DNA from: Rhynchonema sp. JSB1_4
Lineage: Eukaryota > Nematoda > Chromadorea > Monhysterida > Xyalidae
DNA length: 64,000 nt
NCBI GenBank assembly: GCA_030248065.1
Contig: JASAMV010004154.1
Coordinates: 62,001-126,000 of the forward strand
Direction of reading: 5' to 3'
In this document: in pieces, positions 2,291 through 62,949 of the stretch
Layout of the letters: every line of letters starts with the position of its first letter
Numbering within the stretch: the first letter of the stretch is position 1
Translations under genes and position numbers: made by a program
The notes under the pieces: model-generated
The model's input: the letters and a program-made list of their open reading frames with translations, nothing else
What the model was told of the DNA's origin: nothing
Databases searched by the model: none

Positions 2291-3379
2291 TTAAAGGTGC
2301 TGGTTAACAACCGTTCGACCGCGCTTGATCTTGGGGGTAGTATATTTTAACAAAGTTTGGACATCGTGTTACTCGACCCTAATCTGGCGAACCGATTGGT
2401 TGCTTTCTGATGTTTCACGGCCACGTTGAAGCTTGCCCCTGGTGAAAAAGACCGAAAAAATTTGAAATGCTGCTGTGATACGAATAGGCTGTTTCAAAGT
2501 TTGATACTGGAGTGACAGCAACCTCCAACATTGTGGCGAAAAGCGCAATGCACAATAGCTATTGAAACGTCCGCATTGTTGAATAAAAAATAAAAGGTGT
2601 CAGAAACCTGGCCATTTTTTGTTCGGATTTTCTGCTCGTATAATTTTAAGCATCTGTGGTGAATGAAATAAGTTGTCAATTACAAATAAAAATCCTCTAA
2701 TTATCTAGTTTTTTGTTTGTGCTCCCCAGTTTTCAAAACCCGACACAGCTCACACAATGTTTACCACAACATGCGCAAGGCAGCCATTCCACAGCGCACA
2801 CACAACGACAACACACAGTCGGCACAGCGACAACACAGCAATGTTTCAGCTGGCAAGCTTTGTTGTGTGTGTGCGCTGTGGAATGGCTGCCTTGCGCATG
2901 TTGTGGTAAACATTGTGTGAGCTGTGTAGGGTTTTGAAAACTGGGGAGCACAAACAAAAACCTTGATAATTAGAAGATTTTCATTTGTAATTGACAACTT
3001 ATTTCATTCACCACAGATGCTTAAAATTATACGAGTAGAAAATCCTAACAAAAAATGGCCAGGTTTCCGAAACCTTTTATTTTTTTATTCAACAATGCGG
3101 TCGTTTCAATGGCTATTGTGCATTGCGGTTTTCGGCACACTGTTGGAGGTTGCTGTCACTCTAGAGTCAAACTTTGAAACAACCTATTCGTGTCACAGCA
3201 GCGTTTCAAATTTTTTCGGTTTTTTTCACCAGGGGCAAATTTCAACGTGGCCGTGAAACATCAGGAAGCAACCAATCGGCTCGCCAGATTAGGGTCGAGT
3301 AACACGATGTCCAAACTTTGTTTATATATGCTACCCCCAAGATCAAGCGCGGTTGAAGGGTTGTTAACCAGCAGCTTAA
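2291..3379. mobile_element. long foldback element flanked by TTAA
   Basis: Almost the whole 1.08 kb folds on itself. The left arm 2295 to about 2810 is the reverse complement of about 2865 to 3375, with only a few mismatches, around a loop near 2812-2862. TTAA lies at both borders (2291-2294 and 3376-3379). The loop contains AATGTTTCAGC and each arm carries one copy of the TGATGTTTCA motif (2408 and 3254). No coding capacity is visible; open frames in the arms mirror each other and are by-products of the palindrome. Confidence 0.85.
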
Positions 3380-3970
3380 GTTTCAATCCATCATGCCATA
3401 ATGATTCGAAATTCTTATGCATTTTTTTATTTGATAGTATCCATGAATGGAGTGTGCCAAGGTTCTCTGCTTATAACGCACTATGATTGTGAACTCTAAA
3501 TATTTTTTGCAGTGTCCTTTCAGAAGTTTTCACGGTCTATGCAAATTATTTTTTACTTCTCGTGTCGCATAACTGTATTTTACGTGCGCATCACACTGCA
3601 AAACAAGGTTCTTGTTTTAACTGGATTTTTTTGACGCTAAGGGTGGTCATGAAGCATTTTTTATGAAAACTGTGTCAAAGGGATAAAGATTTTCGTGAAA
3701 ACTTGGATAATGTTTTGTTGTGTTTTATGCGGTATGCAACCGCCAGTGCATTATTTCTCATAGTCCCTTGCTTTATTCTTGAGCACTGAAGTGAACGTTT
3801 GGGCTTGACTCTTGCCCGTTCAGTAAACCACGCGAAAATGTTTCAGGTCTGTGCGCGGTCTTTGGCCAGAACACTGCTGCTGTGCTGAATGAAGCAGCAC
3901 TGGAAGTTTTGCTTCACTTCAATAAACTTCGCTGTTTTTCGTCTGATTTTTTTGCTGACAGCAACTCAGC

Positions 3971-8033: not shown

Positions 8034-10807
8034 TCACTTTTTCTTTCTGCTCTCCTGTTGCTGTGATTTGTTCCGTGTGCAGCAGCATTTCCTGCACATC
8101 AAGCCCACCATCAGGAGCGCCACCACTCCTCCACCAGCCACAATGGCCATGTCGTATTCCGGGTGTCCCCAATGTGTTAGCACATCTCGATGCACCACTA
8201 TGTCTTGGGGTTCGAGGGTATCCGCGATCCATTGCAGGAAATCATCAGGTTCCCGGTTGCCTGGAGTAGAAAAGCGGGTACAGCGTGCTTTTTTGTTGTC
8301 TGCTTTCACAGACGGGCGGTGCACCAGGTACTCGTCTGTGCGCGTGCCTCCAAAAGACCTGCGAACTCTTTTATGTTCGCATTAAACCTCACTGTTGGTT
8401 CAAGCACACTATGTTCGTCACAAGCTCTGATATTCCTGGACAGACAGATGATGTTTCATCGGAAAATACGAACATAATTTTAAATGTCCGATTTTAAACC
8501 TGTGTATTCTTCGTTGTTATCCTTCCAAATCAGTTGAATGCTTGGCACACGTTGGATGCTGTACCGATCACGCAGACCTTTCCATTGCGCTGTGTTAACC
8601 TGCGTGCGAATGTTGCTGCAATAAAGTTTCGTGGCCAGAAATTCGGTATTCATTTCCAACCCAAATAAGAAATTTGACCGTCATAATGGAGTGACATGAC
8701 ATTGTTTTATCACAACATGAAACCGCAAACGTGATACATTCTCAAACATAATGAAACGTCTATACAATCTAGTTGGCGCTTGGATGAACTACAACTACAC
8801 AGTACTGAACAAAGTTGGAATATTGCTGTCAAAGATTGCGATAAAAGTTCCATTCTATGATAATTCTGATGTTTCACGCCTTCTCTTCCTTCGAAGTACC
8901 GGGCTCAGGATGTGGTGCGGCCGGTGCGTAGTGTTCAGCTCTCTTCAGCATTTTGTCCAATTGTTCCGGATCAATAATTAGTTGATTAGTGCCAGTTCGC
9001 TGATGTAGACCTGGCCGTATAAAACCAATCACGGCTGGTAACCGGCGTATGATGAAGTAGAATGTGAGCACGGTTATGAGAAGACTGAATATGAAGATCA
9101 GAAATGTGATCCACCACCATTGATCGTTGCGCATTTTTTAATGTTTGTTTGGAACCTTCAAAGCAAAACACTCGTTGGGCTAAATTCGCACTGGTGATGG
9201 CATTCGCGCCGTCACAAGCCTCAAATGCCGACCAGCAAACTGGTGAAGATGAACTTCAACAGCTTACAGCTTTGGCTCGTCAGTGATAGGTACAGCATCA
9301 GTACCATGAAATGCGGGACATAAAAATCATGTGGTATTATACCTACTTTGCTTGGATTATGCAATAAGAAATATAACAAGCTCGTCTGAATAATATAGAT
9401 GCGATCCATCACAATCAAAAATGCCATTTGTGGGCAGTGGGTGTTCTATTATATAAGTAAAGATATTTTTGGGAAACTTTTTTGATACTCAAACATGCAG
9501 AACCATGGGTAAAACACATCTTTATACTATGTAAACTGAATTTTAGCTGTGCAGTTGGCTTTCCCTTGTTCTGTGCTGCACCGCCGCTTTTTATGCTTCT
9601 TCTTTTCAACCAAACTTGGCCTATGTTACCACTACTGTTCAATTTATACAAACTGTGCATATGTTCTTAGTTTGACTTGGCAGGGCATTTATTTTTAACA
9701 GCAAGGAAACAGTAGCATAACAAGTAACCATGTGAATAAGCAGCTACTTATTTCGAGCTGCACTTTTTTCAAACCACGTCTGAATCTTTATCGATGCGAA
9801 CTTCACCAGTATGCCGTGTGCGAAAACAGGACTGGGAAAACGGCCTTTTCTCTGGGTTGTAAGACATCGTCGCTCTTTGTCACATGGTCGCGCGTTATAT
9901 GAACTACAACATATCCGGCTGCTAGGGAAAGCTGAAAGGCTAAGCCTAAGCCGAAGCGTAGGCCTAAGCCTAAGCCTAAGCCCAATCATAGGCCAAAGCC
10001 TAAGCCTTAGCCGAACCCAAAGCTAGTTGAAAATACGCGCGACCAAGTCAAAACGAGCGACGATGTCTCCGGACCTTTCTCTGCGTAGCCAAGTTCAGAA
10101 ATATAAAAAATGTGTAGATTTTGGCTTATTCTGTTGTCGTCAATGCAAGTCATCGGCACGTGAGCACAAAAATGGTGCATTGCGTCGACGCCCATCCACT
10201 TGCGTCAACGACATTAGAATCAGCCATAATTTTTGCCATCACTATTCTTTAACCAAATCAAAGTTGCCTCATATTTGACTCACGCTCAAGTAATCAATCA
10301 AGAAGTTTTTACGCAAACAAACATGTCATGGGAAAATCATACAAATTGATTCGTTTTCGGTAGCATGCACTAAGCCATATGTGAAAACATTCAAGAATTA
10401 CTACATGTAAATAACCACTTCAAAAACAGATACCTTTGCAAGTGCGATGCCAGGCACGAGGGCTTCTATCCTTTGAACGAGCGAATCATAAACGGGGGCG
10501 AATGATTTGCAGTGCGCACACCATGGGATATGGAAATTAACCTGGATAAATAAAAAACGCGATAAAAATACCAAAAAACTTCGACAAAAGTGCCGCATAC
10601 CAATTTGACAGGATGTTCCTTGGTGAACAGGGGCCAGTTCGGTTCTCCGACTTCGAATATTCCATGGGTATCCTTGTCAATCCGATCAGTAGGGTACACG
10701 ATGGTGCGCACATTGGAGGTGAACATTTGATTGTCACGATCGTCACAATTGACTTGATTACAAAATATTGTGACAAACAGTGACAGAATCAATAAATTTC
10801 TGGCCAT
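8034..10807 (-). CDS. membrane-anchored thioredoxin/PDI-like protein (TMX-like), 4 exons
   Basis: Exons on the minus strand: 10807-10601, 10541-10434, 8599-8500, 8260-8034; phases agree and give 213 residues. Order: signal peptide (MARNLLILSLFVTIFC), a thioredoxin fold with active site PWCAHC (about residue 76-81), the cis-proline region (RVPSIQL), a TG turn, then a C-terminal transmembrane segment (MAIVAGGGVVALLMVG), a cysteine-rich juxtamembrane stretch and a lysine-rich tail ending ESRKKK. The layout matches the TMX family of ER membrane oxidoreductases. The active site CAHC differs from CGHC of PDI and from CPAC of TMX1. Intron 2 (1.8 kb) holds telomere-like repeats and a possible nested gene. 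Intron 3 contains a copy of the 80-90 bp dispersed repeat, which opens a false frame around 8270-8330. Confidence 0.87.
8286..8352. repeat. 80-90 bp dispersed intronic repeat, copy in the thioredoxin-like gene
   Basis: The core reads CAGACGGGCGGTGCACCAGG followed by tactcgtctgtgcg. It matches the other intronic copies (see the finding on this family) and lies in intron 3. Confidence 0.75.
8874..9134 (-). CDS. possible nested gene: 86-residue single-pass membrane protein
   Basis: A single open frame starts at an ATG (MRNDQWWW) after an A-rich leader and ends at a TGA that lies inside a TGAAACATCA motif. An N-terminal hydrophobic segment (ITFLIFIFSLLITVLTFYF) is followed by RR and a polar tail ending TSKEEKA. 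It sits entirely inside intron 2 of the thioredoxin-like gene on the same strand. Composition looks coding rather than random, but no family is recognised. It could also be a terminal exon of another transcript. Confidence 0.45.
   Translation of the reverse strand: MRNDQWWWITFLIFIFSLLITVLTFYFIIRRLPAVIGFIRPGLHQRTGTNQLIIDPEQLDKMLKRAEHYAPAAPHPEPGTSKEEKA
9935..10018. repeat. degenerate telomere-like repeat (GCCTAA)n
   Basis: About 12 imperfect units of CCTAAG (complement TTAGGC) run from aggctaagcc to ccttagccga. TTAGGC is the nematode telomere unit, and interstitial degenerate tracts are known in nematode introns. The tract lies in intron 2 of the thioredoxin-like gene. Confidence 0.8.
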
Positions 10808-14084: not shown

Positions 14085-17000
14085 ATGCTGGACGGCACCA
14101 TAAACGGACCGGATGAGGATGAATTTGATTGTGATTTAGCCGTCGAAACACTGTGTTCGGCGTTTCAGGAACTTTGTGCGTTCATTTTTAGCTTATTTTG
14201 TTCATTATTTTCCGTTTTCGTTCTTATTAGTACCCTTGTCTGATTTTAATCAGTTCTTTTAGCGACTGATGACAAAGCGATCATTGATGTGCTTGTATCG
14301 CATTCGAACGAACAGCGTCAGCAGATCAAAAAGAGCTTTCGCACCAAGCACGAAAAGAATGAGGTTTCCGAATGCAATTTTTTTATTTCCACTTTTATCA
14401 TAAAAAATTCCAAAACTTCATTTCCAGAATCTGCGTGATGTGATCACTCAAGAGTTTGGCGGACATTTTCTCGAGGCAACACTGGCCCTATTGCAAGCCC
14501 CGTTGACGTTTGATGCGCACTGCATCCGAAGGCATATAAAAGTGCGTCGTTTACTATATTTCAGTTCTCAACTGAAACGACACTGAGACTCATACAGACT
14601 CGTTGATGTTTCAGGCGGTAAGTACATATATGTGTCTGTTTGTGCTGGAGAAGTGCACCCCAGAGAACAAACACTATGAGTAAATGGATAAGTGAATGTT
14701 TTGCGGTTTCAATACATTATTTGGTATTTAACCATACAGGTATATTTATATTTCAGCGCAAGAAGATTGTCGACAGTTGTCTGGTGGATTTGTTTCTGCT
14801 CCGAGAGTGGGATGTGAGTTCAACTTCAACAAAGTTTTCTTTGCTCAAATTAGGATGTTTGATTATCAGCTCGTTGAAACGCGCGATGCACTATCATTAC
14901 TGTTATCATGCCCCATACCTGCAAATAGTGGGTTACAAATCGACCTTCTCCCGCCAGGAGCGTGAGGCGATAGTCGACACGTACTACCAAGCGTACGGCC
15001 AGACGCTGGCGAGTGACATTCTGTCGTGCGGCGACTTCCATCCACATTTGTTGGAGTTGTTGAATGCAAAACGACCGATGCACCAGAACGAGATTGATTT
15101 GGAGATGGCACAGAAGGACGCGGAAGTGTTGCGAAAGGTATTCATTCATTGATTGACTGATTTTATTGATTAGTGGATTGATTATAGTCCATCCACAGCT
15201 CATGTCACTTTGTGATGCTGCTGACTGGTTTGTTCTCTTCCTCCACGTTCTAATGAAAGAGAAATTGAGTTTCCGAAAAAAATTATTTTTGCTCCTAGAT
15301 TGTGGTTTTTATGAAATCGACGTGTTTTATCGATTTTAATTTGATTTAATTTTAAATTTGATCGAATTCAATCTTTTTCGACACACTTTGTTATTTTTTT
15401 TAGTTTTTTTGCAAAATCGGTCACACTCAATTTCTCTTTCATTAGAACGTGGAGGAAGAGAACAAACCAGTCAGCAGCAACACAAAGTGCCATGAGCTGG
15501 TGGATGGACTATACTTAATTAACTTCAAGACTTTTGATGATCAATTCCGATTGATTTAATTTAGGTACTCAGTCGCTAACATCGATCGAATCTTTAAAGG
15601 GCTCGGGACACAACCGAAGGAAGGGCAGCAGAGCGCAATATTATACATCGTTGGAAATCACTGTGACAGCATATGTCACGCACAAATGTTAAGCTCCTTT
15701 GAGATTCGCTATCTCTTGGTAGAGCGACTTTTCGTTCCAGAAAAAAGTGAATTTTTTCACAGCTTGAAACGACCGGTGCAGAAACCCCAAATGAGTTGTA
15801 AGTCAAGTAACACGTGGATAGGATTACAACAGCTTCTGGATAGCTTATCATGAGAACTTCAGTCGCTCAAAGCATTGCTTCACTCGGTGAGGGTGCGAAA
15901 TGTTCCAAAAATTGGCCACATTTTTCAAAAACACAAGTTTGTCTCTAAATTTTGAGGCCGCGCTTTGTGTTGCAGAAATGAAAATGCAACAGAAAAATAG
16001 AGCATTGTCGAAAGTACCAGAAAATAAGGTTTTTAAATTTGGAAACACTTAGATAACGGCGTGACAGGCCGAAAAATACCTAAAAATTGCCACTAAACTG
16101 CATAGTTGCATTCATTGACGGAAATAAAGTAAAACTACGCCAACACGAGCCCGATTTCGGGGCTGGCAAAATGGTGAAACATTCATGACGTGGCTGCTGG
16201 CAAAATGGTGAAACATTCATGACGTGGCTGCTGATTTGGGAAACGTTACACGTTGTGGTATGCAACATGGAGCATGATGATTTTCTCTTTCTTTGCGTTT
16301 TGCAAGTTCACCACCTCCGAAATGGGGCTCGTGTTGGCGTAGTTTGCCTATATGATGTAAATAAGCCACGTATTGCATTGCATTGGAAACGAGAAAGTCA
16401 GATAAACGCACAGTCCAACAATCTAGACAAGTTTCAAGACTTCAACCCCCATGGTCCGGCTGCTGCAGCCATGCCAGCCTGAATAAGATATTTGGCTATA
16501 AGCCGTTACTGTTAAATATTATTGCACATTTCGTAGCATGAAACGATGTAGCTTCAATGTAGCTATCGAACGATGTATAACATGCCCATACTATCTCTTA
16601 CTACGGATAAGAAACGGTCAAAATTCCGAAATCGCACACGGTGACGTGACGGTTCACTCCAGAATCGTCAAAAAAGCAATTTTTTAACCTCTGCCCTTAA
16701 GCCTAAGAATTTATTGGGGCTTGTTATATATCATTCGAAAGCTACTCCCGAGATACATTGTTTGGTGGTGTCACATTTACAATAGCTGTTAACAATAAGC
16801 ATTTATAGCTGAATATCAGATTTAGGTTAGTATGGCTGCCCCGAGAGATCTGTAGACCTTGGAGTCTTCGGACTTTGATAGGTTGTTAAACCAGAAGTTT
16901 CTCTCATTTTTTTGTTTCGAATCCGATGCAATCTGTGGCCTTTATGTGTCACAATTCTGGCGATGAATGTCACCACCTAATTTAGCGGCAATTTAATGGA

Positions 17001-18304
17001 TTTTAGGCCTGTCACGGAGCTAGCCATGTGTTAAAAAAATTTAAAAACCTTATTTTCTGGTACTTTCGACGATGCTCTATTCCCCATTGCATTCTTATTT
17101 CCCCAGCTCTAAGCGTGGCCTCAAAATTTAGGGACAAACTTGTGTTCTCGAAAAATAAGGCCGATTTTTGGAACGTTTCGCACCCTCACCGTGTGAAGCA
17201 ATGCTTTGAGCGACTGAAGTTGTGATGGTAAGCTATTCAGAAGCTGTTGTAATCCTATCTATGTGTTACTTGACCTTCAACTCATTTGGGGTTTCTGCAC
17301 CAGTCGTTCCAATTTGTGCAAAAATTCACTTTTTTCTGGAACGAAAAGTCGCTCTACCAAGAGATAGCGAAACTCCAAGGAGCTTAAAATTTGTGCGTGA
17401 CATAGGCTGTCGGAGGGCTTTCCAACGGTATGTAACAATATGTCCTGCTACCCTTCCTTCGGTTATGTCCCGAGCCCCTTAAAAACTTTTTTGACCTGTT
17501 AATGATTGATTGATTGATGAGCTCTCGGTTGCTAACCGAATTGATCTGTTATTCACATTCAGGCTGGCGTTGACATCCTCGGTGCAGATCTGCCCGTTTT
17601 CAAAGTGATCATCTGTCAACGGAGCTTTGCTCAAATTCAGGTGCGGTTCCAAAACGAGATCGTGATAGCAATTTAATGGCTAGCAATCTGATGTTTCAGG
17701 CCACGTTCGCAACATACGAGAAAACATTTGGACGCACGGTGGAAGCGGACTTCCATGTCAGAGGTGACTTCAGGGACGGACTGATCAGAATTGGTAAGTT
17801 AGCCAATGAGTTTTTTAATAGTGTTTGTTAGCTTTATTTATTTACGCAATGACTACCCAATCGCATTTTTTTCAGTTCAACTGATCAAAGATCCAGTCGA
17901 GGCGTACGCCATTCAATTGGGCAAGGCATTGGGTGAAGATGTGGTCACTCGCAATAATGTCGATGACGAAGAGTTAATACGAATATTGGTGACGCGCAGT
18001 GAGGTGGGTTGGGACGGATTGAATGATTGATTATAAAACATTCGTTTATGACTGAATTTTTTGGTGGATCGATTTTGTTCCTGCTATGATTAATACAATT
18101 AGTGATTGGTCGGTCAATCGATTTATCAATTGATCGATTGATTGCCTGTTTGATGGTTCACTATGTTTCCAGATCGATCTTGAGGCGATAAAGAATCAAT
18201 TCGCAAAGCGCTACCATCGTTCGCTGGTGCAATCAATTCGTGAGGTCACACACGGCGAGTATGCACACCTTCTGGTGAAGATTGTTGAGCCGAATTCTTT
18301 CTGA
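14085..18304 (+). CDS. annexin-family protein with degenerate calcium sites (8 exons)
   Basis: Exons: 14085-14175, 14263-14363, 14428-14541, 14757-15137, 17563-17640, 17700-17793, 17876-18003, 18173-18304; phases agree and give 372 residues. Annexin repeats are visible. Repeat 1 has TDDKAIIDVLVSHSNEQRQQI and GGHFLEATLALL; repeat 2 has QEREAIVDTYYQAYGQTLASDI and FHPHLLELL; repeat 4 has DDEELIRILVTRSE. Annexins bind acidic phospholipid through GxGT calcium loops. The GLGT loop of repeat 1 is replaced (QELST) and the others are also eroded, so calcium binding may be weak. A 3-nt micro-exon (GCG, 14615-14617) is possible. In exon 4, about 117 nt starting GTGAGT at 14814 is in frame and could instead be an intron. 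The 2.4-kb intron 4 carries two foldbacks. Confidence 0.93.
15184..15513. repeat. short foldback repeat
   Basis: The arms at 15184-15275 and 15425-15513 are reverse complements (ATAGTCCATCCACAGCTCAT at the left, inverse at the right). It lies in the long annexin intron. The arm sequence resembles the insert before the poly-A tract at 61225-61273. Confidence 0.75.
15594..17482. mobile_element. TTAA-flanked element with about 450-bp inverted arms (15598-17478)
   Basis: TTAA lies at both borders. The left arm, 15598 to about 16050, begins AGGGCTCGGGACA; it is the reverse complement of about 17030-17478, with mismatches. The 1-kb centre holds a perfect 34-bp tandem duplication (about 16165-16230) and no recognisable gene. 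It sits in annexin intron 4. Confidence 0.83.
16165..16232. repeat. perfect tandem duplication of about 34 bp
   Basis: The block beginning ctggcaaaatggtgaaac and ending cgtggctgct occurs twice in direct succession. Confidence 0.85.
17689..17699 (+). promoter_or_regulatory. TGATGTTTCAG at the 3' splice site of annexin intron 5
   Basis: The 10-mer is placed so that its final A plus the next G form the splice acceptor of the exon at 17700. The same arrangement occurs at 14604-14614, and on the minus strand at 46618-46627 and 57424-57433. Confidence 0.6.
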
Positions 18305-18789
18305 CGGTTTAATCGATCATTTAATTAATTCGTCATTTAATATTTTAACACGTATATGTATGTGTTCCTATATTTTCCGTTCGTGATCAAGATGATGCGA
18401 ATATCATCCGCTGCTCTGGTTTTATCTAACGTTATCTGCACTTAAAGCATATTTTGGTCAATTTTGCTTCAATTTTTTTGCAACCACATATTTCCAAGAT
18501 ACATAAGTACACAGCTGTACAGCGAAGTTCTGTTTTTGTATTTTTCAGATGATCAAGGACCGTAGTAATAAGTATTTTTCGTGCTTGGTTGAACTATGCA
18601 CATGTAACAGTTCATCATTAAAATTACAGTAAATATATTATATACCCAATGCTTTGCACGTTTAGCGTGATGCGAATTGCACACCCCAGGCCAGGGTTGT
18701 TTCAAAGAAAAGCCCTTAATTTAAGATTAATGGAACATCTTTTACGTCAGACGAAATTAGTGGCACCACTAAATTTCTTAATATCCATA

Positions 18790-18870
18790 ATTCAAAAAAG
18801 CCACGTGACCAAGGCAGCACCGGTTCGATCCGATCCGATCACCAAGTTTGATACCGCTCATTATGTATAA
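18790..18870 (+). repeat. tRNA-like dispersed fragment
   Basis: The sequence has ggttcgatccgatcc, close to a pol III B box, next to gatcaccaagtttgatacc. Related blocks occur at about 58925-58965 and 59400-59450. It could be a decayed tRNA-derived SINE. No complete cloverleaf was found. Confidence 0.4.
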
Positions 18871-19256
18871 CGCAACAACGAATAGAAGCGGGATTTGCCA
18901 AGTGCAGAAGGTTACACAAAAGGCGCATAAGAGCAAACGAGGAATTTTGCGTGCATTTGTGCGCAGAACGTGGTCTGCGAAATATATGAAGGCATGAGTA
19001 TCGCATTGAAAGATGGTGTCGGCGCAGGTGAGCGTGCTGAAAACGTACAAGCCCGCCAAGTCATGCTGCAACCTCGAGCAGCATGCGATCCCAACCTATT
19101 GGGCTTGGGACAGGTTCAAAGAAACCAGAGGGTTACAACAACAAAAGACTGCCCGCATACACCGTTACCCAGCTGGCAGCGCGGCAACCCGGGTCCTACG
19201 AGGTTACCGAGCCTATGATCTGAAACGAACCATATGCTTGAATCAAAAAGGGTACT

Positions 19257-45018: not shown

Positions 45019-45442
45019 AATATTCCGACCACACTGGGCTGTGAAACATCAGACTTGCTCAATAGGGAAGTGTAAATGAGAAAAAGCACCTTTCAGACTT
45101 TGGCTGTGCGACGTTGCCCATTTGCACCGACTTGCCATCTTGCACCCCTGTTTCCGTCTCTGAATCGGTGGCATTGGTCAGACTGTGCGCCTCTGTACAT
45201 AAATAGGATGCGTGGAACATCAGAGGCTTCAGAGAATCGAAATCACATATGTAATTGTGGTGCCATTTACGTCGCTCGCCTAAGCCACGATGGGCATGAT
45301 AACAGAGAATTATCGCAGATAACAGAGAGTATAATTAGCAAACTAGAGAAAGGTGCCGTGAGTGATGTCAACCACCTGTTAGTTAAACTCGACCGGTCTG
45401 TTGAACACACAGCACCAATATTCTGAGTCCTAAGCAAGTGTA

Positions 45443-47947
45443 CTAACGTGCAGTGACCACGTGCGCGGATGGTGCCACGTGCACTGGTGCTGGGCTGGCG
45501 ACCACTGGGGCAGCCGGCTGGTTTTCGTCCAATTGTTTTTGTGGTCGACTACTGAACAGGTCTGAAAAAGGTTGGATAAAAAGTTACAAACTGTTGTGAC
45601 TTTTGGCTTTGATTCAATTCAACGAAACCGGTTGACCTTCGGTGCTTTGGCTGGGATTGTTACCACCGTCCTGCGCCTGCAGTTGTGAGATGGTCTCCCT
45701 GAGTGGGGCCAGTTCAGCCATGATCACCTGCAGTTTTTTAGATTGTTTTTTTCCTCAGTTTGGGTATAAATATTTGACAACAGACCTCATCGTCTTTCGG
45801 CAGTTTGTGAAGCATTTTTGTGACGTCATGGGTCAGAAAATCGTTCAGTACGGCCAACATCTGATCGTATAAAAAGCGAGTTGTCTTCACCACAATTCGT
45901 GCGATTGTTCTTGAATTTTCAAAAAAAACAAGCTGAACCTTTTTGTCGATTCGATGCCAGAGTTTCGGGTCGCTCTTCTTTGCCATCTCAATCCATTCTT
46001 CTTGTCGCGGTAGATCGGTCGGCACCATGCGATGTTTGAATATGACACGATCGCACGCCTGTGTTTAGCTATGGTGCGGTAAAGCAGCGGTAGTTGGGTT
46101 ACGGCACGTGGGTTACGGTAATTGGGTTACGGTAGGTTACTGTAATGCAGAGTAGAATCGATTACGATAGTCAGTGCCACCTTTTTCACTCGGTTTTTGG
46201 TCGCTGCCTTCTGGATTCCGTTCGGTGTTTTCGACATTCGATCGCAAATGCACGTGCCCTTCATCACCTCGTCCATCACGTAAATGTGCGAACGCAACTA
46301 AAAATGAAATGATTATTGAAAAAATAAAAGAAGAAACGAGAAAAAGACGAAATTTGAAATACCAATTTGCTTCTCTTGACTACATCGTTCAAGCGTCGCA
46401 CTTTGGTCGATTTCGGTAGCTGGCTGAGTGTCTCCATCAGCGCTTTGTAGTCTTCGAGGAAAATCTGCAACAAACAACCGTTAATTTCCATAGTCGATTT
46501 CAAATAAAATATTTTCCAATTCCGAGCAAAACCTGCGCCAGCATTTCGTTCGTGTTGCTGTCGTTCTGGAGCACTTTCTCTTCGTTGCCGAACGAGCCGA
46601 GGAACACACGTGGCACCTGAAACATCAGAATATTTGATCTTACAACTAAGTTTTGAAAAACAAAAACATAAAACATAAAGCTATAAGGATTTCAAACCTC
46701 GGACGTGATCATGATCTTGCTGAGACTCCACATGAGCGCGCCACGACATCGAATCAGTTCGCCTTGCGACACACAATTTGCTTTGTTCAGAACGATCATC
46801 ATCTAAAATGGGTTACTGTACAGTATGTCTGTTTCATGCTACAGTGCCCCTGAGTGTACAGCACGCCCAACCTTTTCTTCGTTGGTGTGGAGCGATTGGA
46901 TGACTGATTTCAGTTCGTCGCTGATATCGAGTTTGGATGGATCGAACACCAACATGATACGGTCAACCTGCGTGTCAGCAAATGGTTTAATTACGCAAAG
47001 TGTCGCTAACTGAGAATATTAGTGCTGCTCAAAATAATACGTGGAGTCGAAAACGTTATACCTTGTCAGCCAGGAATTTGACGGCGGCTTCAAAGTCGTA
47101 GCCACGTTTCTCGCTCTGTTTCTCGCCGGATAGAATGCCTGAACAGAACAGGTCACGGTAACAACGTGTTACGGTAGTGATGGTATGCCGACAGATACAG
47201 TAACCTGGCGTGTCAATGAACGTGACTTGTTGCAGCAATGGTGCCGGACATTGGGCGCAGCGAAGTTTCAGCAGGAAATTGGCGCCGAATTGATGGAGTT
47301 GCTAAAAAAAAGATTGGAATTAAGGTTAAAAATATTAATTAATTAGAAATATTTTTAAGCCCTGTCCAAAGAAATAAACCAAACCAACTTGATACGGGAA
47401 CTCGCTGCTCTGCACCAATGTGTTACCGTAGAGTTCGTGTGTGTTCGTGCTGTACATGATTACTGTGAATGTGTCGGTTGTGGGCTCGGGACCGATGCGT
47501 GCACCTGTGGGTTACGGTACGTTACGGTTGGGCTATGGTAATCTTACCAATAACGTGCCGAAAACCAACCGGGGAACGATTGTCCGAGCAGATGTTGTAT
47601 GAATGACGTTTTGCCCACCGAATACTGCCCCAGCACCATCACAGCGGGCTTGGCTGAGAATTCGGCTTCCGGCAGTGGCGGCCCTGTGAAAACGAGGCAC
47701 GCTGATGCTTCACAATGCATAAGATAAGTGACCAACCATAGAATTGTTCGAAAGCATGACGCTGCTCCAGTGGTCGCACCTTTTCGATGTAGTAGAGTTT
47801 AAGGGCTTCTTCCAGTGATAACTGCAAGGATTTTATGACACATCAAAACAAAGGTAAAATTAATCAAACTGAATAAACACTATCTTCCTAACTTACTGTT
47901 TCAACATCGGGCAATTGTTTCTTTTTGTGAAATAAATTCCAACCCAT
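45443..47947 (-). CDS. EHD-like dynamin-family ATPase/GTPase lacking the EH domain (14 exons)
   Basis: Exons: 47947-47897, 47821-47737, 47683-47570, 47504-47389, 47301-47205, 47138-47062, 46967-46872, 46802-46698, 46616-46533, 46464-46363, 46297-46181, 46058-45786, 45727-45637, 45561-45443; phases agree and give 508 residues. EHD landmarks in order: YIEKVRPLEQ, P-loop GQYSVGKTS, RIGPEPTTDTF, VTFIDTPG, LSGEKQSEKRGYDF, ADKVDRIMLVFDPSKLDIS and LNKAN. EHD proteins are membrane-tubulating ATPases of endocytic recycling. The C-terminal EH domain is absent. In its place come a divergent helical region, a short Q-rich segment and a proline/alanine tail ending HVVTAR. The fourth nucleotide motif reads NKAN, not NKAD. 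Intron 8 ends with CTGATGTTTCAG. Confidence 0.95.
46618..46627 (-). promoter_or_regulatory. TGATGTTTCA(G) at the acceptor of an EHD-like intron
   Basis: On the minus strand the 10-mer plus G is the end of the intron before the exon 46616-46533. Confidence 0.6.
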
Positions 47948-48509: not shown

Positions 48510-51500
48510 TCATGACTTTGCGTCAAATTTCCTCTGCACCCATTCACCGATTGCGTCAATCACGCTGTACACCAAGTGCACCAATGTGATCAAGCTGGCA
48601 CCGAGCCAGAATCCGAGTGAACCACCCACTTGCGACATCAGGTCGACCAACGTGTTGATTTTGTACTTTTCAATCACCTGGAATACAGCCAGATGGTGCA
48701 CCAGGTCCTCGTCAGGATTGGGAGCATAAAACCAGCTTTGGGAATGTAGTCGTCTGGTGCATTCACGCTGACGATCACATGATACCCCATATCATGTCCG
48801 TCCATGCCAACAGGTCGAAACGGGCAACCAAAACACAATTCACATTACATTATGGTGCACCAGGTCATCGTCAGTAGGGATACTAACTAATTTGTTCACT
48901 TTTAAAAAATACAAACTACGGCTTACCAATACAGACAATGTTCGGTAGTAGACATCAAGTTGGGCAAAGTTGTACGATGCAATATTCTCATCTTGGTCTT
49001 TCGGTACAGAATGGTTGTAGCGCTGCAGCGCAAGTGGCAAGGAGCTCACCTGATGTAAGGGGTGCTTTTCAGAATTATACGCTCCCTATGCAGTATACCC
49101 TCTTTTCAGCGACCGCTCTTATTAGTGAAACCGTCTGGTGATTAGTTTCGAACACTATTTGGCACTTATTGCCGTTCATTTCGGATGATCACTCCCGTTG
49201 TGAATGTTCGTGATGTGATCGAAGATGCAGCAAGATTCCCTATTGTGTCACATGTAAAGAGGGTGAAACTGTCTGTGATTAGTCGCCCTACCTGCGGCAA
49301 CGCAATAATGCGATTGTAGCTGACTGAAACATCAGCTTCATCATACACACACTGCGGCTCGCATTCAACGTTGCATCGACGCACGAATGCACGGTCACTG
49401 CAATTGGGGCCGGGTATGGAATGGTCGAAATATTGGTACCGTGCGTATAAAGGCTTTTAGACACACAGTTGCTCCCAAGTTCATGGTATCGCAGATATAC
49501 AATATGTCATAATAGTCTTTTTGTGACATAATGGCGACCGGCTAATTTCGGTCACCATATGCTCCATAAGGAGGTTCACTAAGAAGAGCGTACATCGGAG
49601 TTGTCACAAATTGACATCATTGCAAGAGCTAACGTCATAGTCATTTCCTTCTGCACACATGGATCGTCCTGAATTTCACATTGCCTGTATTTCACACTTG
49701 GTCGCACGGAGTCAGAGCAATTGCAACGTTGCGCGATCACGTAGAGATTACAGTCAGCCAGACACATGTCCACGCTGTAGTGGGAGTCTGGCAAAAAGTA
49801 AAGTGCTTAATTTACATGTAAGGTTTACCGTTTGGTTGCCCGTTTCGACATGTTTCATAGACGACCGGTGCGCCAGGTCGTCTTCAGTGTGAATGCACCA
49901 GATGACACCAAAAAAACCCTGGGCTATACCTTATGTATGTACATAGTTTCGTGCTGTCATAAAATATCAATGACTGCGCAAACGCTCCTGTTCTAAGTTT
50001 GTCAAATGACAGAAAACATTAAGCAAATGAAACATCACACACTCACCTTTCAGCACCCGAAGTTTGGGATCTTTAACGCAATTCGGTGGCTCATCATTAA
50101 CTGGCAGCAGGTCGGTTGATTTTTTATACGTCAAACGTCTTCGCTGGACACCAACCCAGCTGTGAAACATCAGATGGTTGGGTATGAGTTGGGATTTTAA
50201 AACTACAGTCTTCCCTTCTTCAGAGTGACATGATCGGCAGCCAGTCAGTCCGACGGGATCCCGATTCATTGGGTAAAAATTACAACATTGACTGTTTAGA
50301 TTGAGGACCAATGGTGGTCGTAAATATGCATGGCGGCCACTTGCACTATAAAGATAGGCAACACTGCAATATGAAGCATCAAATTCCACTGCATTGACGT
50401 GCTCCAAAACGAACGTGTGAAACCCGGGCGCAACGTTAAGCACATTTCCAACATTGCTGTTTGCGCCATAGCTCAGGCGAATCATGAACCCGAAGTCCAA
50501 GTAGTTATTCATTACTGTCGGTATGTACTCGTGACTAAGCGCGTCCAGAAGAATCGATATTCCACCGTAAGGACCTAAAATTTCGAAATTTTCTAAGTCA
50601 CGGTTAATTTTTTTAATTCCGCAACGCACCTGGTTCGGTCACATCCACTCTGTCACTAAATCGAATGTACATGCATTTGCCCGATCGTCGACCGTAATGG
50701 TACGACACGTCAACGTCGTCCCCATTCGCAAATCGAAGCGAACAGAAATTGTCGCCGTCACCTTAAAACGGAATGTGCTCTGTTGTTACGAGCTAGAGTA
50801 ACACCTTGAAGTAGGCTTTGCCACGGAACCCATGTCTTATGCCACCACAACTTGGTAACTTTATGTGAGAAAAATAAAATATCCGACCTTGAAAGTTGCT
50901 TTTTCCATTGAATCGCAGTTTCGTCTTCACGGTCACAATCATTTCTTCACACGTTGGTGCCAGTTCACGCAACAAGTCCGTTTCGGTCATGTTGTGGTTG
51001 AGGAGCCAGTGCTGGATGTCCAGGTCGACTGCGCTCTCTCGGTCTGCGAATGGAATGTACAATATTTTGATATAGCATGCAATTTATTTTAAATTAAAAA
51101 AGACCTTCAATGATGTAAGTGCCGCGCTGTGCCACCAACAACGAGTTGAGCAACGCAGGTGTGATCTGCAGCTCCACCAATTTGGATTTCTTGAACCGGT
51201 TGTAGTTGCAGATGTACATGTTGGGCAGCGGTAGACCGTCCTTGAAACGATATTCGAATGAAGTTGTGTTTCACTGCCTGCCAATGCAAACATTTTCGTG
51301 CTACCGTTTTTTGGGCCGTGCTGCCGTCTGGGTACATTTGCATAACCGATGACCTGGTGCACCGCCAGTCTGGGAAAACAAGTCGGAACGGGCAGCGAAA
51401 ACCGCGCTACAGTACCAGTGATCGTATCAGTTTTTTGAAGCTACACTAGTCCCTCAGGTGCCCCTGTCCCTCCTCAGTGTTTTACTCACCTGTGGGTCAT

Positions 51501-54587: not shown

Positions 54588-57500
54588 TTAAAATACGCCA
54601 ACTGTGCTGGCCTTTTCCTGGTCCGAATCCGGTAATTTATCTTTCAATTGTTTGCGTTTTCGCTGTTCCTCCTTCTCGCGCTTTCTCTTCTTCTTCTTAC
54701 GTCGTCGTTTCTTTCGGCCACAGAGCTTGTCGAGCTTTCGCTTAATCTTGTCGCGAACCTACGACACCGTTTTAATACAATATTCAAGTTTCTAGAAAAA
54801 TATTAATCTAATGAACATATAGCACTCATAAATTGACACGTTCGTCACCACAGGTTGCGATATCATGCCCAGGGTTGGATTAAAAAATTTTTTTATTATG
54901 GAACTTTTTTTTAAAAAAACTTTTTAAAATTTTTTTAAAAAAATCACTTTCTTTCATTCCGGACCTGCAAAAAATTGGTTTCTTGAAGAATGAAATTTCT
55001 GAAATCATGTTAGTAAGGTATGTATGTTTTGAGGGACACTAAAGAGAACTTTTCCACTGACTTGCATGTTTACGTAATCACCTGCGATCTAATCCCCTTG
55101 GTCATGACTTTGAGAAATTCGAAGGTAACTGTGGGTATACATACTGTATATGACAAAGGGAAGACCAACCTTCTGTTTGTGAATTTGGGGATAGATTTGA
55201 AGAGAGATAAAGACTCACTCTCACTTTCTGTCACAAAAGCAACAAATAGCTAATCCGCACAACTGCAAACAGGCGAGCAACGTGGAGTCTGTCGATAGCT
55301 TACGACACGTTCAATAACTATACAGTTGGGGTGTCCTATGTTATACATGCAGCTGTCGTTGGGATGTCTGTGAACTGTATGAGTCCATCATAACACTATT
55401 TCAAACTGAAATATAAGCGCCGCAGGCAATTTTTTGAGAATCATGGGCAATGGAACACATGAAAATATGCGTTTTTACCTTAAACAAGTCAGAAAATAAT
55501 GAAAAAAGTGAAAAAATAAAAAAGTGGACTTACTTTTTAAAATTTTAAAATAAAAAGAAGTGGCCAACTTTTTAAAAAAAATTTTTTTACAAAAATTTTT
55601 TTACTTTTTTTAGTCCAACCCTGATCATGCCCATCCGTAATAACACAGCCATCAACATCCCAAACATAACGAAACGCAATCCCAAAAATATATTTACGGC
55701 AGCATTTCCAAGCGAGTGAAAGAAGCCAACGCAACATCCCAGCGCGATACAACCACCGAGCGACACAGTGCTCCAAACAAACACCATCCCCCCGGTGGGG
55801 TACTCGACTTGGTGCAATTCGGCTTGCAATGTCGCCACCATTGATACCATGCCGATGAAGAGCTTTAGATACAGACCACTCCATGCTACCCTGTAATGGC
55901 GGGGGTGATGTTTCATGAACTGCATGTAGTCAGTGCATATGCAGTGGGGTCACGCAGTTGCGTGGCTTGACAGTTTGCAGCTCCTACCCAAGAATGGCAT
56001 CGATCCTGGTGAATGGGTCCGATTTGGTCATGTTACTTTTTGTATGAAAGATTTTTCGAGATTCACCAATGGCACTAACTTCAAAAACCGTAAAATTGTT
56101 TTTGAGATCAGTCAACAGCTACTTTTACGGTGGTCAAAATGCACACAGCATGTCAGCAGTACACTTCCATAATACACTCGTTGACGTCGGTACATGCGTA
56201 TGTAGGTATACAGAGACCGTACCGAACCAGATCGATCATCCAACATCATCCAAACTTTTGTAAAAAAAGGCCTGAGGCTCTCATATCGGATCGGAACCGA
56301 CTCACTTTGCGTCACTGTACTGCCTCCAATTAGTGCACGGCAACGCGTACGGGTAGTGACGACGTTGCACCATTCCGGACTCGGTGGCAACCAGCGTTAG
56401 GGCGATTAGGGCGGCGTGCACTACGAACCTGCAATTAATATATACTCTGACAACACTTTGTTGAGCGGCTGGCAGTCACGTGACCGCTGCAGCTAATGCA
56501 CGCATAATGAGCTTTACGGATCAGGCAACGCGTTTGAAAAGTTTCTCCCAAAGATATTGTCGGAGTATACATACATGTGGGTTGTACAATTGGAGCACAT
56601 CCTGATTCTAGGAAGACCATGGGTAGGATGACAACAAGGGACAGATGTGCGACAGCAATGAGGTTTGACAGTTTCGACTTGTTTTCATTTCGGGCGGTGC
56701 ACAATGAGATCGTATCGGTGTGTCATGTGACCCGAAAAGTGTATTGGTGGACCAGACAACAGATCTAATGATCTTATAAAACATCACTTGCATTTCAAAC
56801 TCACCAAACCCTGGGTGCAATCATTTCACCACAAGCATTATCCAAATGATCACGTGTCATATTGGCCACAGTTGCGTTCAGCACCTCGAATATTCGTTGT
56901 TGTTTCTCGATCTCGCGTTCGTCGTTTTCGTCTTCCTCCGCTTGTGCGTTTTCTGGCAAGCGCACGTGCCATGATCATTTTTAACCGAAATTTTTTCAGA
57001 AGTGGGAAAAAACTGGTTGTTGTTCGGCTGTTATTATGCCCATTAACGGCATCTTGTAGGAGGGACGGTGCAGAGAGAAACGCTTGGACCGGTGTGCACT
57101 TTGGTCGCAACCGGGGTACCTTTGGCCGCTGTTGCGTGTGATGTCATTGCCATTGCTGTCACAATGGGTTATGTGATGCTCTCTTGCAATTTCTGTGATA
57201 GGGTTCAGCTTAAATGTCGTTCCCGTGTGAACCTTCGGTCGAAATCGCGGAAACAACGAAATCGTCTGATATCATGACTAAGTATTATGGATGATTTTGC
57301 AGCCCAAACACGCCTCCGACCAAACCCGAACGGTTGCCAGCAAGGTGACCACTACTCACATTAACTAACCTTCACGATTATCCATGCTCTTATCGACCAT
57401 TTCACAGTGTCGCATCCAGCAACTGAAACATCAGGTCAGAAACAAACCGACACTATGTCTTGTTGCCCAAAACAGCCCGTTGGAAATGTGCCAAGAACTT

Positions 57501-60500
57501 TGAAAAATACACCAAAAATCAAACTGACAGTTTCCTTGTGAACACACTGTCGTCATCACTCCAGTCGACGTCGTAGACAATTGTGACCAGATCTCGCTTC
57601 AGGTACACCCAGTACAACGCGATCGTGCCTCCGACGAACACTTGAAAAGCAAGTACAGATTCTTTTGCAGTCTTGGTGGCCGACGGTGCAAGCATCAGAT
57701 CATCGATAGTACGATGTATGGGCCAACCAGATGACCCCCAGATCAATCACACACGCAAACGCAATAACCCTTGCGTCAGCCCCAAATGAGCATGATACCA
57801 TAACAAGGTACATATGCGCAACAGCCACAATTGAGTAAACAACCCGAACAGTAACTCACGGATGACCAAAAAGTACTGAAAGAATATTGGCATGATTCCA
57901 TTCTTTCGAACAACGTGCGATAGAAATGCCATGATGTGACAAGCCTCCAGGAACAGAAACGTGAAGTAGACAAGGAAGCAACCGTTCAGCAACATTGCGA
58001 TTATGTAGCAGTACAGCTGAAACAGAGGCGCATGAAACATTAGCCACTTGGAAAAGTGGCTGTTGTTTCACCAGATCTAGGTATGTTATATCAATACCTC
58101 ATCATCATGCACGATGTCCATAAAAATCAACACCACATGTGCGAAGAACAAGCTGAGCTCCTGCGGGATGTGGAAAGCGCGCTGCGTCGTGAAATTGCTG
58201 TGAACAATTCAGAAAAGAATTATTTCGTGATGTTGTTTCACAGAAAAATATTTCTCCATCAACTTGCCAATCCAATCCGAACATCACCAGCAGCGCAACG
58301 CACACACAACAAATGAAGATGTACCCGGCTCGTCCCACCACTGCTGTGACTGTGGCTGTCACCTGGGTTCGAGTGACGTCATCTGAAAAGAACAAAAATT
58401 CTATTTTCAACAATTTTTTAGAAAGTTTAGACGTATTGCGCGAGGGTAATACAAGTTATGTGGCCATCTGGTGCATCCGCACTGACGATGACCCGTTGCA
58501 CCACCCGGCTCCAAAAGCAGGACCAAGCGGACACGTGTTGATTTCGGGCGATCACAATCAAGCGGTTGATTTCACCGATCTTTATCACGAGATTGCTTGA
58601 GGTCACCCAAAACACCCACGAACCTCTCAAATTGCAAATATCCTTGAACACCTCAATGCCAGCCGAATTGTTGAACTGACAGGCTCGTGTGTGTTGGTCG
58701 CGTGCGCCGGTTTCAAAGTCGGGCTTGCATCTTGACTGATCATCAACGTCCGTGATGGGCATACATTGACGTTTACGGGACTCCTTGCCCGTGCCTGTGT
58801 ATGGAAGAATTATGCCTTTGATGCATAAAAATGCATGGAGCATTTGCGCTGGCTGGTCGACGATGTATAAGTAAATTTCGTTGTTATTAATTTTTATTCA
58901 TAAGAGGTCATATGACCGAGACAGAACAGATCTGGTACGATCCGATTACTAAGTTTGATATCGGCCAAGTGTGTACATACAGACAATTTGCAGACTCTCT
59001 TGTTATCATGCACATCAACAGCAGCTGTGCGATACAGGATCAAGGTATAACAGACCCAATGTTGCATTGCAGTCCGGCTGGCAGATACTCCAACTGCTCC
59101 ACTCTGACCAAGAGGGACACGCTTCGAGACTGCATAGTCGATGTTCGGTTTGCTGCAATTAATCGACATTGAGTTGGGAACTTTGCCTTTGTTAACTTTC
59201 CGCTTTACTGTGGTGACGTCAAATTTGGTGAGAGGCTAGGATCGGACGAGTTTTGGTCACTGATTTCTTTGAATACAGGATACAAGTCGACGTTGACACT
59301 AACTTGGACCATCGTGAAAGTGTTTCCGAGACAGCAGATAAAAACTAGAGCTTTTACTGGCATACAAGAACGCAAACCTATAAGAATCGTTGCATTAAAA
59401 AAGTCACGAGATCAAGGCGCAATCGGATCACTAAGTCTGATACCTGCCAATCTTCACAATTGAAATTCAACATTGAAATTCAACCACAATTGAAACATCA
59501 CCCACCCGTCCATAGCAGAACGCGGCGCCGACAATCTTCCTTGTGCGTCGATGCGTTGATGTTCCACACGTGGCTGTGCACTGGTTCCAATCAGACCAAG
59601 GCGTCCATTTGCACAGCGACGAGTCGCAGACACACACATGAAAATCGGATTCGAATAAATGTTTGAACATGGCCGTTCGGGCATTTGTCACGTAATCTCA
59701 ATGTATCAAGGTTGGCTGCGTTTTTTCAACAACTATGTTTCCTGTGTGGTTTCTTTTACTTTACTGTATACAGTGGCTGATAGTATATGTACATTTATTA
59801 GCCTACATACAGCTCGAGTCAAAGTTGCAGAACTCGTTAAAAGGTCACAAAAGCCGTGCACCAAACTTGATGATGGGATCGGCCTCAGAGGTGTCAATCA
59901 GGCCGAGGTTTTCCATGGTTGGGCCGGACCGGACTTCCCGGCGCGACATTGCTCAAAATTAATAAAATAAAACCGCGGTTTTTTGTAAGGACTTGGATCC
60001 TTTCGCCAGGGTAAAAATTGTCTATTGGATACCTAGATGCAGCTATCATAGGGAACAGCTTTTGAACTGGTGGAAGTGATTGGTCTCCGTAAATCTTGAC
60101 ACTTGATCAAAAAAACAAGACCAGACGCAGCACCGATCATGGAGTTTCTGTATCAAAAACAAAAACTGAATAAATATCGATTTCACTCAAATGCGAGGTG
60201 ATTACTGACCGGACAGGGGTCGGGCGTGGTCGTCGGCAGACAATCGGTCAAACCAGGACAGTCTCGGAACTCAACGTCGTACTTTTTCAAGTTGCACAAG
60301 ATCAACGGACCCTGGAAAATCAGTGTAGTGCTCCAAAATTATGTTATACGTGCATGACACGTCAAGTCAACATTATCATTCCACCTCGCAATATCTGATG
60401 TACCGCTGTTGGCCTGTGCCACAAGACACTGAACAAGGGCCCCAGATTTGCCATTCGGCCCAAGTCGATTCTGAAAAATGCGTGGATTCTTATTTAAAAA

Positions 60501-60597
60501 GGACTTTTTTGAATATTTTTACCTGATCACCTGTTATTCGCAAGTGACAGAAGACGGTCGCAGCAATCAAAGCCGTAAATGAACCAAACGATGTCAT
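54588..60597 (-). CDS. signal peptide + three thrombospondin type-1 repeats + multipass receptor-like membrane protein (about 16 exons)
   Basis: Exons: 60597-60531, 60470-60385, 60311-60210, 59696-59506, 59152-59056, 58794-58624, 58382 to about 58327 or 58242, 58197-58098, 58016-57860, 57661-57529, 57422-57370, 56952 to about 56805, 56677 to about 56571, 56428-56306, 55890-55698, 54758-54588. Most junctions agree in phase; those after exons 3, 7 and 12 are unresolved. After a signal peptide (MTSFGSFTALIAATVFC) come TSP1 repeats WAEWQIWGPCSVSCGTG, WTPWSDWNQCTATCG and WSEWSSWSICQPDC. About eight hydrophobic segments follow; two (RAFHIPQELSLFFAHVVL and NGCFLVYFTFLFLEACHI) resemble TM2 and TM3 of adhesion/secretin-type GPCRs. 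The tail is very basic (KIKRKLDKLCGRKKRRRKKK). GPCR assignment is tentative; the TSP1 repeats are clear. The last intron holds hAT MITE copy C. Confidence 0.87.
54862..55631. mobile_element. hAT-type MITE, family 2, copy C (element 54870-55623)
   Basis: The 754-bp element has CAGGGTTGGATT at the left and GTCCAACCCTG at the right, with a perfect 8-bp duplication atcatgcc at both ends. It sits in the last intron of the TSP1 receptor-like gene. Confidence 0.95.
58462..58535. repeat. 80-90 bp dispersed repeat, TSP1-gene intron
   Basis: It reads catctggtgcatccgcactg, then acgatgacccgttgcaccac. Confidence 0.75.
59491..59500 (-). promoter_or_regulatory. TGATGTTTCA 6 nt after a splice donor
   Basis: On the minus strand the donor GTGGG of the exon 59696-59506 runs straight into TGATGTTTCA. 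Confidence 0.5.
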
Positions 60598-62949
60598 TTT
60601 GTCATTATCAATAGAAATTGAGAATATTTCTGGTCTGATCACCACCAGACGGAGGCATAAAAATCTCGTTTGTTTACCCTCCAACAGCTGCTGGTAACCA
60701 TAAACAGCTGAAACAAATTACACACACTACTAGAAATGTCAACACTAAGCGAACAAGACAAAAGTGTTCAAGCTGGTAGACATTTGAGGTCACTTCCTAG
60801 AAACAGAACAAGGCATGTGCTGTCAAGTGAGCATTGTGGCTATAAAAAGCGGCAAAATGCGTGTGTGTCACAACCGTGGCGCGCCAAGACACCAACTGTA
60901 ATCAATCAGGCATCGCCTTTGGGGCTACAATTGGATAAATGTCATGATATAACTACCGTAATCGACCCATAATAAATGCGATTTAAAGGTCTGAGCTCAC
61001 TTAGTATGCACTGGTGGTGCCATTCTGAAAATACTCAATCCTTACCTGGTTAAAATGTATGGCTGTCTGGATGCAAAGTGAAGTCGGAAATGTACCTTGT
61101 GCACAGCAGAGGTTTGTTTATGGCGAAGGACTGACGTTGCTATGTTGGTATACATGTACACTTAACGTACGTTGGCGGTAATTTGAGGCTGATCTTGGAG
61201 CTGCTTTCTGCAAGAAGTCAAGTATATAGTCTGTCCACCAGCTCATCACTGTTTCTCTGACTCCCTTCCTCCACAAAAAAAAAAAAAAAAAAAAAAAAAA
61301 AGAAGTCAAGTATGTATATAAACAAGTGCCACCAGAAATCGCATGAAATGATTGAATGGATTTTCTGAAACTAATGATTCTTTATACAGTATATGTAGTT
61401 GTGGAATGCATTATAGCATCAGGTTGAGTATGGTCTGCAGGACATCCCAAGGGGACAAGTTTGCACTGACGATGACCTGGGGGCAAATTGTCCATGTGCA
61501 ATGAATGACTGGTCCAAATTGACACGAAACGCAGCATCATACGTTAGTCAGTCAGTGGTGTTGTGCGCGTTTGTCTTTTCGAACCAACCCAGGAACCAAT
61601 CAGTTTCTGCTTCTGACTCTAATTGAACTTTGGGCTTGTTTTGATGTAGTTGTTAGGTTCAATGCACCGGCCACAATTGTTTTATGTATCGATGGTGCCT
61701 AACAAGCAAAACACTTGGGGCAGGTTCATACAAAGGTTCATCCTACAGTAGGTACATACATGTAATTTGAGCCCTTAATTATCGTACCCACTGCCCAGTG
61801 TCTCTGAAAGGCAATGATCACCGCTTGAATCCAGAATGCGTCAAAGTACGTATAAGGTACCTATGGTGCAGTTACCTCACAACAGTTATAATTGTGGGCT
61901 CAAACAGTCAGATGGCTTCTTTCAGGGGTACTAATCCGGTGCAATTATGGCGCATAATCCGTCTCCGCCTGCTTTCCTTGTTATCGTGCAGCATAAAAAC
62001 CGGGATTCTTTCTTCTGGTTTGATCAGTTTTTCTTGATTTTCCTCGCGTTTTACCGTTCACGCCACTCTGCGTCAGAATTTTTTGGATTGTTTTCTTACT
62101 GTCAGTTTTCAACTTGTTACCGTAACCAAACATGTTTTTTTTATTTCCAGTCGCAAAATGCGCTTCCACAAAATTTGATGTGCACCCCGCGAGGACGGTC
62201 GATATCGTGCGATCCAATGTTTCTTTCTGCTCTCTATGATGATGCTGGACGTAGAAAGAGAAGCCATGTGTGAAACATCACGGGTGGGTATGGTGTTGGG
62301 ACAGACGCTTTGGTTTTCTCTGTCTTGTGAAATGGCTTGAAACTTGGGTTTACATTTAACCGCGTATCCGCATAATTTCGGAGAGAAAAAAGCGTGCGAG
62401 TTGGTATATAGCGAATAAAATACCGCTCATTGCCGTGGCAAATCGGGACTTGTCACGATCACCAAGCTTGTCTTCAGCTTGTACTGATGTTTTCCTTTCA
62501 ATTCAAGGCCACGCGCGTCAGCAACATCCTTTTCGACCAAGCTGGTCAATCGTCAAGTCATGGTTTGGAACCGGACAATGTCATCTTTATGAGTCAGGCA
62601 ATCATTCGAGGATCGGGCAGGAAAGTGGAGAGGTTGCCTTTCGTAAATTGTTGCAGGCTATTCTGGGGGGGGGGTTTGCAACGCGCGGCACGACTTTGCG
62701 GTCTTTTATTCACGATGCCTTTCATATTCACGTGCAATTTGTGTCTCGGCCGGGATTTTTTTCACACTTGTTTGATGCTGTTTTTTTATTCTTCTTGTCG
62801 GGCGTGCCTGTTTATGTCTTGTATCGTTTGTGTGCCCGTTTTTATTCATTTAATTATGTGTTTTTGTTCAATACACGCGCGCGGCTCATGGGGTTGGGTG
62901 GGACTCAGGACATGGATCTGAGTTCCTACAAAAATTGAACATTCCCTTG
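60598..62949. other. stretch without a convincing gene
   Basis: Between the receptor-like gene and the satellite I see no family. Two overlapping open frames of 163 and 167 codons at 62430-62938 switch across a run of nine G near 62664-62672. They have no recognised motif and could be chance or a decayed coding segment. A poly-A retro-insert lies at 61210-61315, and a partial dispersed-repeat core (gcactgacgatgacctgg) at 61463. Confidence 0.5.
61210..61315 (+). mobile_element. short poly-A-tailed retro-insert with a direct repeat of about 14 bp
   Basis: aagaagtcaagtat occurs on both sides (about 61210-61223 and 61301-61314). Between them are about 50 bp (starting atagtctgtccaccagctca) and a run of about 30 A. 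This is the pattern of a LINE-mobilised short insert with target-site duplication. Confidence 0.65.

Follow-up and report, generated by a model that had tools for sequence, protein, structure and literature searches.

A nearly exact 10-base word dispersed through the genome of Rhynchonema sp. and its likeness to the U1 and U2 promoter core

What could be the role of a single 10-mer that is repeated, nearly exact and on both strands, tens of thousands of times in a nematode genome? This question is raised by a 64,000-nucleotide stretch of Rhynchonema sp. JSB1_4 (Nematoda; Xyalidae; assembly GCA_030248065.1, contig JASAMV010004154.1, positions 62,001 to 126,000; hereafter, the window), which carries the word TGATGTTTCA 27 times. 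The initial annotation took many of these copies for intronic promoters of Piwi-interacting RNAs (piRNAs), read on either strand, and named a splicing enhancer as the alternative. The reading favored here, with a rough probability of 45%, is that TGATGTTTCA is a predicted binding site in gene bodies for a complex like the SNAP complex (SNAPc), whose identity and function are proposed from sequence comparison.

All 27 exact copies are found at the positions initially given (11 on the forward and 16 on the reverse strand), whereas 100 dinucleotide-preserving shuffles of the window yield a mean of 0.43 copies and a maximum of 3. The enrichment extends far beyond the window. In the entire assembly (203.9 Mb in 5,747 contigs), TGATGTTTCA has 37,556 exact copies (18,829 and 18,727 on the two strands), compared to 345 copies (172 and 173) of the reversed control word; the density is 0.42 per kb in the window and 0.18 per kb in the assembly. 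The one-mismatch neighbors, which the initial annotation also proposed to count, bring a further 54,815 matches, divided among 30 variants with some 1,830 apiece (some 520 apiece for the control word). The exact word thus stands some 20-fold above the mean of its own one-mismatch forms, which shows that it is held nearly exact. In a sample of 240,856 bases from long stretches, 54 copies are seen against 1.7 expected from trinucleotide frequencies, and the one-mismatch forms are mostly near expectation, those raised being chiefly the ones with A at positions 1 and 2 and with G or C at position 8. Such an uneven excess argues against neutral decay, which should raise transitions about evenly, and the strictness of the word is suggestive of selection. 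Base composition is flat across 200 nt on either side of the copies. A text search of one collection of papers for TGATGTTTCA in a nematode context gave no match, which does not make the word unpublished.

The same core occurs in the promoters of the genes for small nuclear RNAs (snRNAs) of this nematode, at the place of the U1/U2 promoter element to which SNAPc binds, the proximal sequence element (PSE). Upstream DNA was read for 10 U1 loci, 9 of them over the cut-off, with +1 set by the 5' end of nematode U1. Five of these loci carry TTATGTTTCA, two carry exact TGATGTTTCA, one has a degenerate core, and in two the core is absent. Wherever it occurs, it ends 34 to 35 nt upstream of the RNA start, and 6 of the 7 U1 loci carrying it also have the motif GAAYGAC five bases further on. 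Among the 7 of 9 U2 matches that were measured (all but L035 and L036), TGATGTGACA is found in four and TTATGTTTCA, TCATGTTTTA, and TGACGTGACA in one each, in every case 37 to 38 nt before the RNA start. The core of TGATGTTTCA therefore also sits 34 to 38 nt before U1 and U2 starts, at a nearly constant distance; this observation is new here. The U2 loci themselves fall into two promoter classes, a TGATGTGACA type and an ATGTTT type (L028 to L032 against L033 and L034), and the U1 loci L064 and L068 share an upstream region that lacks the ATGTTTCA core.

The dispersed copies resemble this element in their core, ATGTTTCA(C), and differ from it in several respects. GAAYGAC was found within 20 nt of none of 84 dispersed copies, a sample of distinct copies in which those with the same first 60 bases were counted once, those with less than 85 bases of flank were left out, and the two U1 copies were not included. 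Most full-core PSE copies have T at the second base, where the dispersed copies fix G. In addition, scanning the window against Rfam with gathering thresholds returned no family, so that no RNA gene known to Rfam lies downstream of the dispersed copies there. The PSE form TTATGTTTCAC is not dispersed, with 711 copies in the assembly against 887 for its control, which indicates that the dispersed TGATGTTTCA is related to the PSE core but has a fixed base of its own. On contig C614 (1528 to 7509), TTATGTTTCAC recurs about every 260 nt, perhaps as part of tandemly repeated genes for a snRNA-type or spliced-leader RNA. SL1, allowing up to 2 mismatches, was not found in the assembly, and the Rfam model of SL1 gave no match among the best 50 of 52,251 candidates scored, which does not show its absence.

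With respect to genes, the copies favor introns. Genes were called with a purpose-made ab initio two-strand model that started from PIWI exons and then trained itself on the sampled contigs, the same DNA to which it was applied; it is crude, and there is no annotation to check it against. A first version, which assigned 76% of bases to introns, was superseded by a model with an intron length cost. Across four stretches with 53 copies (the copy on L015 was left out), 34 are intronic, 15 intergenic, and 4 exonic. As a control, TGATGTTTCA was placed at random and genes were predicted again, 25 times; these implants are intronic in 22.7 cases on average and in 30 at most. A predicted splice site is no more than 40 nt away for 26 of the 53 copies (implants: mean, 10.8; maximum, 17) and 3 to 40 nt away for 16 (mean, 8.0; maximum, 13). 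The clustering at intron ends that had been described from the window is thus borne out as an excess above all 25 controls. It loses part of its force to the host introns, which alone would place 18.1 of the 34 intronic copies near an end; part of the closeness to splice sites stems from their being short. Avoidance of exons is not apparent (4 of 53 copies, against an implant mean of 5.2). The occurrence in either orientation relative to the gene holds, with 18 sense and 16 antisense intronic copies. Independently of the gene model, four copies are intronic beside Pfam-supported PIWI exons, three in sense and one in antisense.

The core, the intron setting, and the PIWI exons all bring to mind the promoters of type I piRNA (21U RNA) genes. 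TGATGTTTCA contains GTTTCA, the GTTTC(A) core of the Ruby motif (given for Caenorhabditis elegans as CTGTTTCA in the initial annotation), and shares with that motif the existence of tens of thousands of lone half-elements and an intron setting as in Pristionchus pacificus. The Ruby core of C. elegans lies about 40 nt before the 21U start. The assembly contains Piwi-clade exons: that on contig C1663 has a solved Piwi protein as its best match (1.8e-15) and Argonaute-2 only at 3e-4, and exons on C3368 and C4595 are near-identical to it, the three being either unmerged alleles or paralogues of recent origin. For an exon on a further contig, Argonaute-2 is the best match; exon L049 is presumably WAGO-like in look, and the source of PDB 6kr6 is taken to be Drosophila. 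A paper from the Sarkies laboratory (PMC6436959) infers that the Ruby motif arose from the SNAPc motif, namely from its GTTTC portion, and that nematode piRNA promoters stem from snRNA promoters; it describes piRNAs in introns of active genes for Pristionchus, has transcription begin at a YRNT, two bases before the mature piRNA, and reports Piwi outside clade V only from plectids. In Plectus sambesii and P. murrayi, the piRNA motif is bipartite and likewise has a GTTTC site common to snRNA and piRNA promoters (PMC6436959), but its two parts almost always occur together, whereas no conserved partner is seen here. If most dispersed copies were such promoters in introns, as in P. pacificus, each firing one short capped precursor, a start signal would be expected at a fixed spacing. 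Among the 84 copies, however, there is no fixed T at any downstream position (the highest count is 35, at +10), and YRNT with its T at +36 to +40 is seen in 22, with no excess over the 27.9 of flanking windows. Five-base windows between +34 and +46 each have YRNT in 19 to 23 copies, so that no spacing there shows a rise either. On the opposite strand upstream, neither T nor YRNT exceeds chance for the number of positions (64 copies). Even a 10% share of canonical promoters is improbable (P of 0.006, or 0.012 for the best window), and a 5% share is doubtful (P of 0.03 to 0.05). The proposal of intronic piRNA promoters on either strand therefore fails the sequence test that defines canonical 21U promoters, and as an account of most copies it is unlikely. 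It appears to be half right, in that TGATGTTTCA may well be kin to the promoter core while giving no sign of canonical initiation.

Other explanations dispense with this kinship or with binding to DNA. An unrelated, highly specific factor, such as a zinc-finger protein, that uses the word as an intronic enhancer or chromatin element would account for a strict 10-base, orientation-neutral word with no partner motif and no start signal. The likeness to the PSE would then be a matter of chance, but the exact word stands at the PSE place in two of the ten U1 loci and is one base off in five more, which makes this explanation somewhat doubtful; it nevertheless comes second to the favored reading, slightly before canonical piRNA promoters. 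An RNA-level splicing signal near intron ends, the alternative offered by the initial annotation, gains from the number of copies close to predicted splice sites and from the 12 of 53 copies that are followed by G, of which the model makes 8 the acceptor itself, compared to 23 of 139 implants; the other 4 include the coding copy at 49325. A few of these G-followed copies do, under the gene model, appear to serve as splice acceptors, and a strong acceptor-like word followed by G may be tolerated mainly where there is a real acceptor. However, the model scores TTTCAG well and so favors acceptor calls, and G directly follows the word in only 17 of the 84 copies (background, 22%), which is no excess. 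Together with the equal use of both orientations, this argues against an RNA-level signal as the main role of TGATGTTTCA and leaves it very improbable as such. Least probable is that the copies are left over from a mobile element or from intron gain. The inverted-repeat element at 2308 to 3363 of the window (arms of at least 210 bp, 92% identical) carries TGATGTTTCA in both arms, its relatives occur on contig C12 (L093 and L094), and the word is intact at 81 to 92% identity; inverted pairs of copies 355 to 360 nt apart are found on C7 and C9. On the other hand, few flanks match among 87 copies compared, the one-mismatch forms make no even halo, and in one 10-kb stretch, a genome-wide repeat search gave matches covering none of 10 copies (39 of 3,769 candidates scored). 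Of 12 pairs of neighboring copies less than 300 nt apart, 9 agree in orientation, with no agreement in wider bins; this count leaves out the single copies on C13 and C14.

In the favored reading, that of a SNAPc-like binding site, TGATGTTTCA would be recognized in double-stranded DNA at some 36,000 places, often intronic and in either orientation. Since the word is taken to be an isolated form of the PSE core, the most likely binder would be the SNAP complex, or else an assembly based on it of the kind that transcribes piRNA genes in C. elegans. The dispersed copies lack GAAYGAC and a fixed start, for which reason the bound complex would probably mark gene bodies or fire short transcription from loosely placed starts, and canonical 21U RNAs would probably not be made at most sites. 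Several observations weigh against this reading. The commoner PSE form differs from TGATGTTTCA at one of the ten bases, the core is missing from two U1 loci, and five of the seven measured U2 loci have TGATGTGACA or TGACGTGACA, so the match to the U1/U2 core could be a coincidence involving an unrelated factor. In one pair of Argonaute paralogues, the word is changed to TGATGTTTCG in one copy. Finally, pyrimidine-purine steps are most frequent at +35/+36, the place of the U1 start, where they occur in 32 of the 84 copies (21.1 expected; P of 0.006 for this position taken alone). However, 27 of these 32 lack T at +38, and the neighboring positions dip; the step is a lead that would fit a U1-like start and is not counted here as evidence.

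In the window, the gene model places 17 copies in introns, 8 between genes, and 2 in exons, with 13 within 40 nt of a predicted splice site. The genes that the model recovers are plausible: the window has ones for a 3-beta-HSD/epimerase, an annexin-like protein, and an EHD-type protein, and contig C7 has an EGF/laminin-G and an MBT-repeat gene. Of the seven gene models scanned, two have no Pfam family, one of them at 17225 to 19220. The errors of the model include a copy at 6192 of C7 that is called intronic and reads as coding, and the fusion of a DEG/ENaC-like gene with the EHD-type gene. Relatives of the EHD-type protein are found in many nematodes at 41 to 47% identity, the top-listed match being from an arachnid, with many plants after it. 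Another match to an annotated protein is at 29%, to a filarial nematode. An open reading frame that runs through an intron gave no match in a homology search, and TAL-effector rows were disregarded, as no stretch in them passes on its own.

Four intronic copies belong to the 3-beta-HSD/epimerase model, one in sense (38328 to 38337, reverse strand) and three in antisense (39134 to 39143, 39283 to 39292, and 39474 to 39483, all forward). Two reverse-strand sense copies are in introns of the EHD-type model, at 45042 to 45051 and at 46618 to 46627, the latter forming the acceptor of an 81-nt intron. Three more sense copies stand at predicted acceptors, namely 14604 to 14613 (forward, in the annexin-like model), 17689 to 17698 (forward), and 57424 to 57433 (reverse), and two other reverse-strand copies called sense are 50028 to 50037, 9 nt after a donor, and 50163 to 50172. 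The remaining intronic copies are called antisense: on the forward strand, 8449 to 8458, 8867 to 8876 (1 nt from a predicted donor), and 55906 to 55915 (15 nt from an acceptor); on the reverse strand, 34485 to 34494, 34681 to 34690 (15 nt from an acceptor), and 34943 to 34952 (29 nt from an acceptor). The copies called intergenic include those in the left arm (2408 to 2417, forward) and right arm (3254 to 3263, reverse) of the inverted-repeat element, two others on the forward strand, at 31862 to 31871 (with a CAG 26 nt downstream that the first model left unused) and 43820 to 43829, and four on the reverse strand, at 25070 to 25079, 33186 to 33195, 59491 to 59500, and 62271 to 62280. As initially stated, the reverse-strand copy at 49325 to 49334 is exonic in the gene model (it reads ...ADVS...); the copy at 30534 to 30543, also on the reverse strand, is called exonic on the opposite strand. 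Among other repeats of the window are two high-copy palindromic families, at 35951 to 36265 and 37543 to 37769, that occur on many contigs, a 242-bp tandem array at 63047 to 64000 (3.9 copies, 99% alike) that runs off the window end, and a degenerate AAGCCT (TTAGGC-type) array at 9935 to 10023, which resembles TTAGGC, the nematode telomere repeat.

This genome combines a GTTTC core in its U1 and U2 promoters with a dispersed form that differs by one base, is nearly exact, and is found beside Piwi-clade exons. It thereby allows a direct test of whether such a half-element can become dispersed and be retained when canonical 21U initiation is lacking. A tentative interpretation is that an isolated half of the snRNA promoter element has spread to some 36,000 sites, many of which lie in introns, and that a SNAPc-type complex might act there in gene bodies without a fixed start, either at a new class of small-RNA promoters that feeds Piwi without following the YRNT rule or in a function of SNAPc other than initiation. 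If true, the presence of SNAPc at tens of thousands of mostly intronic sites with no fixed start base would put a basal promoter factor to an unexpected use.

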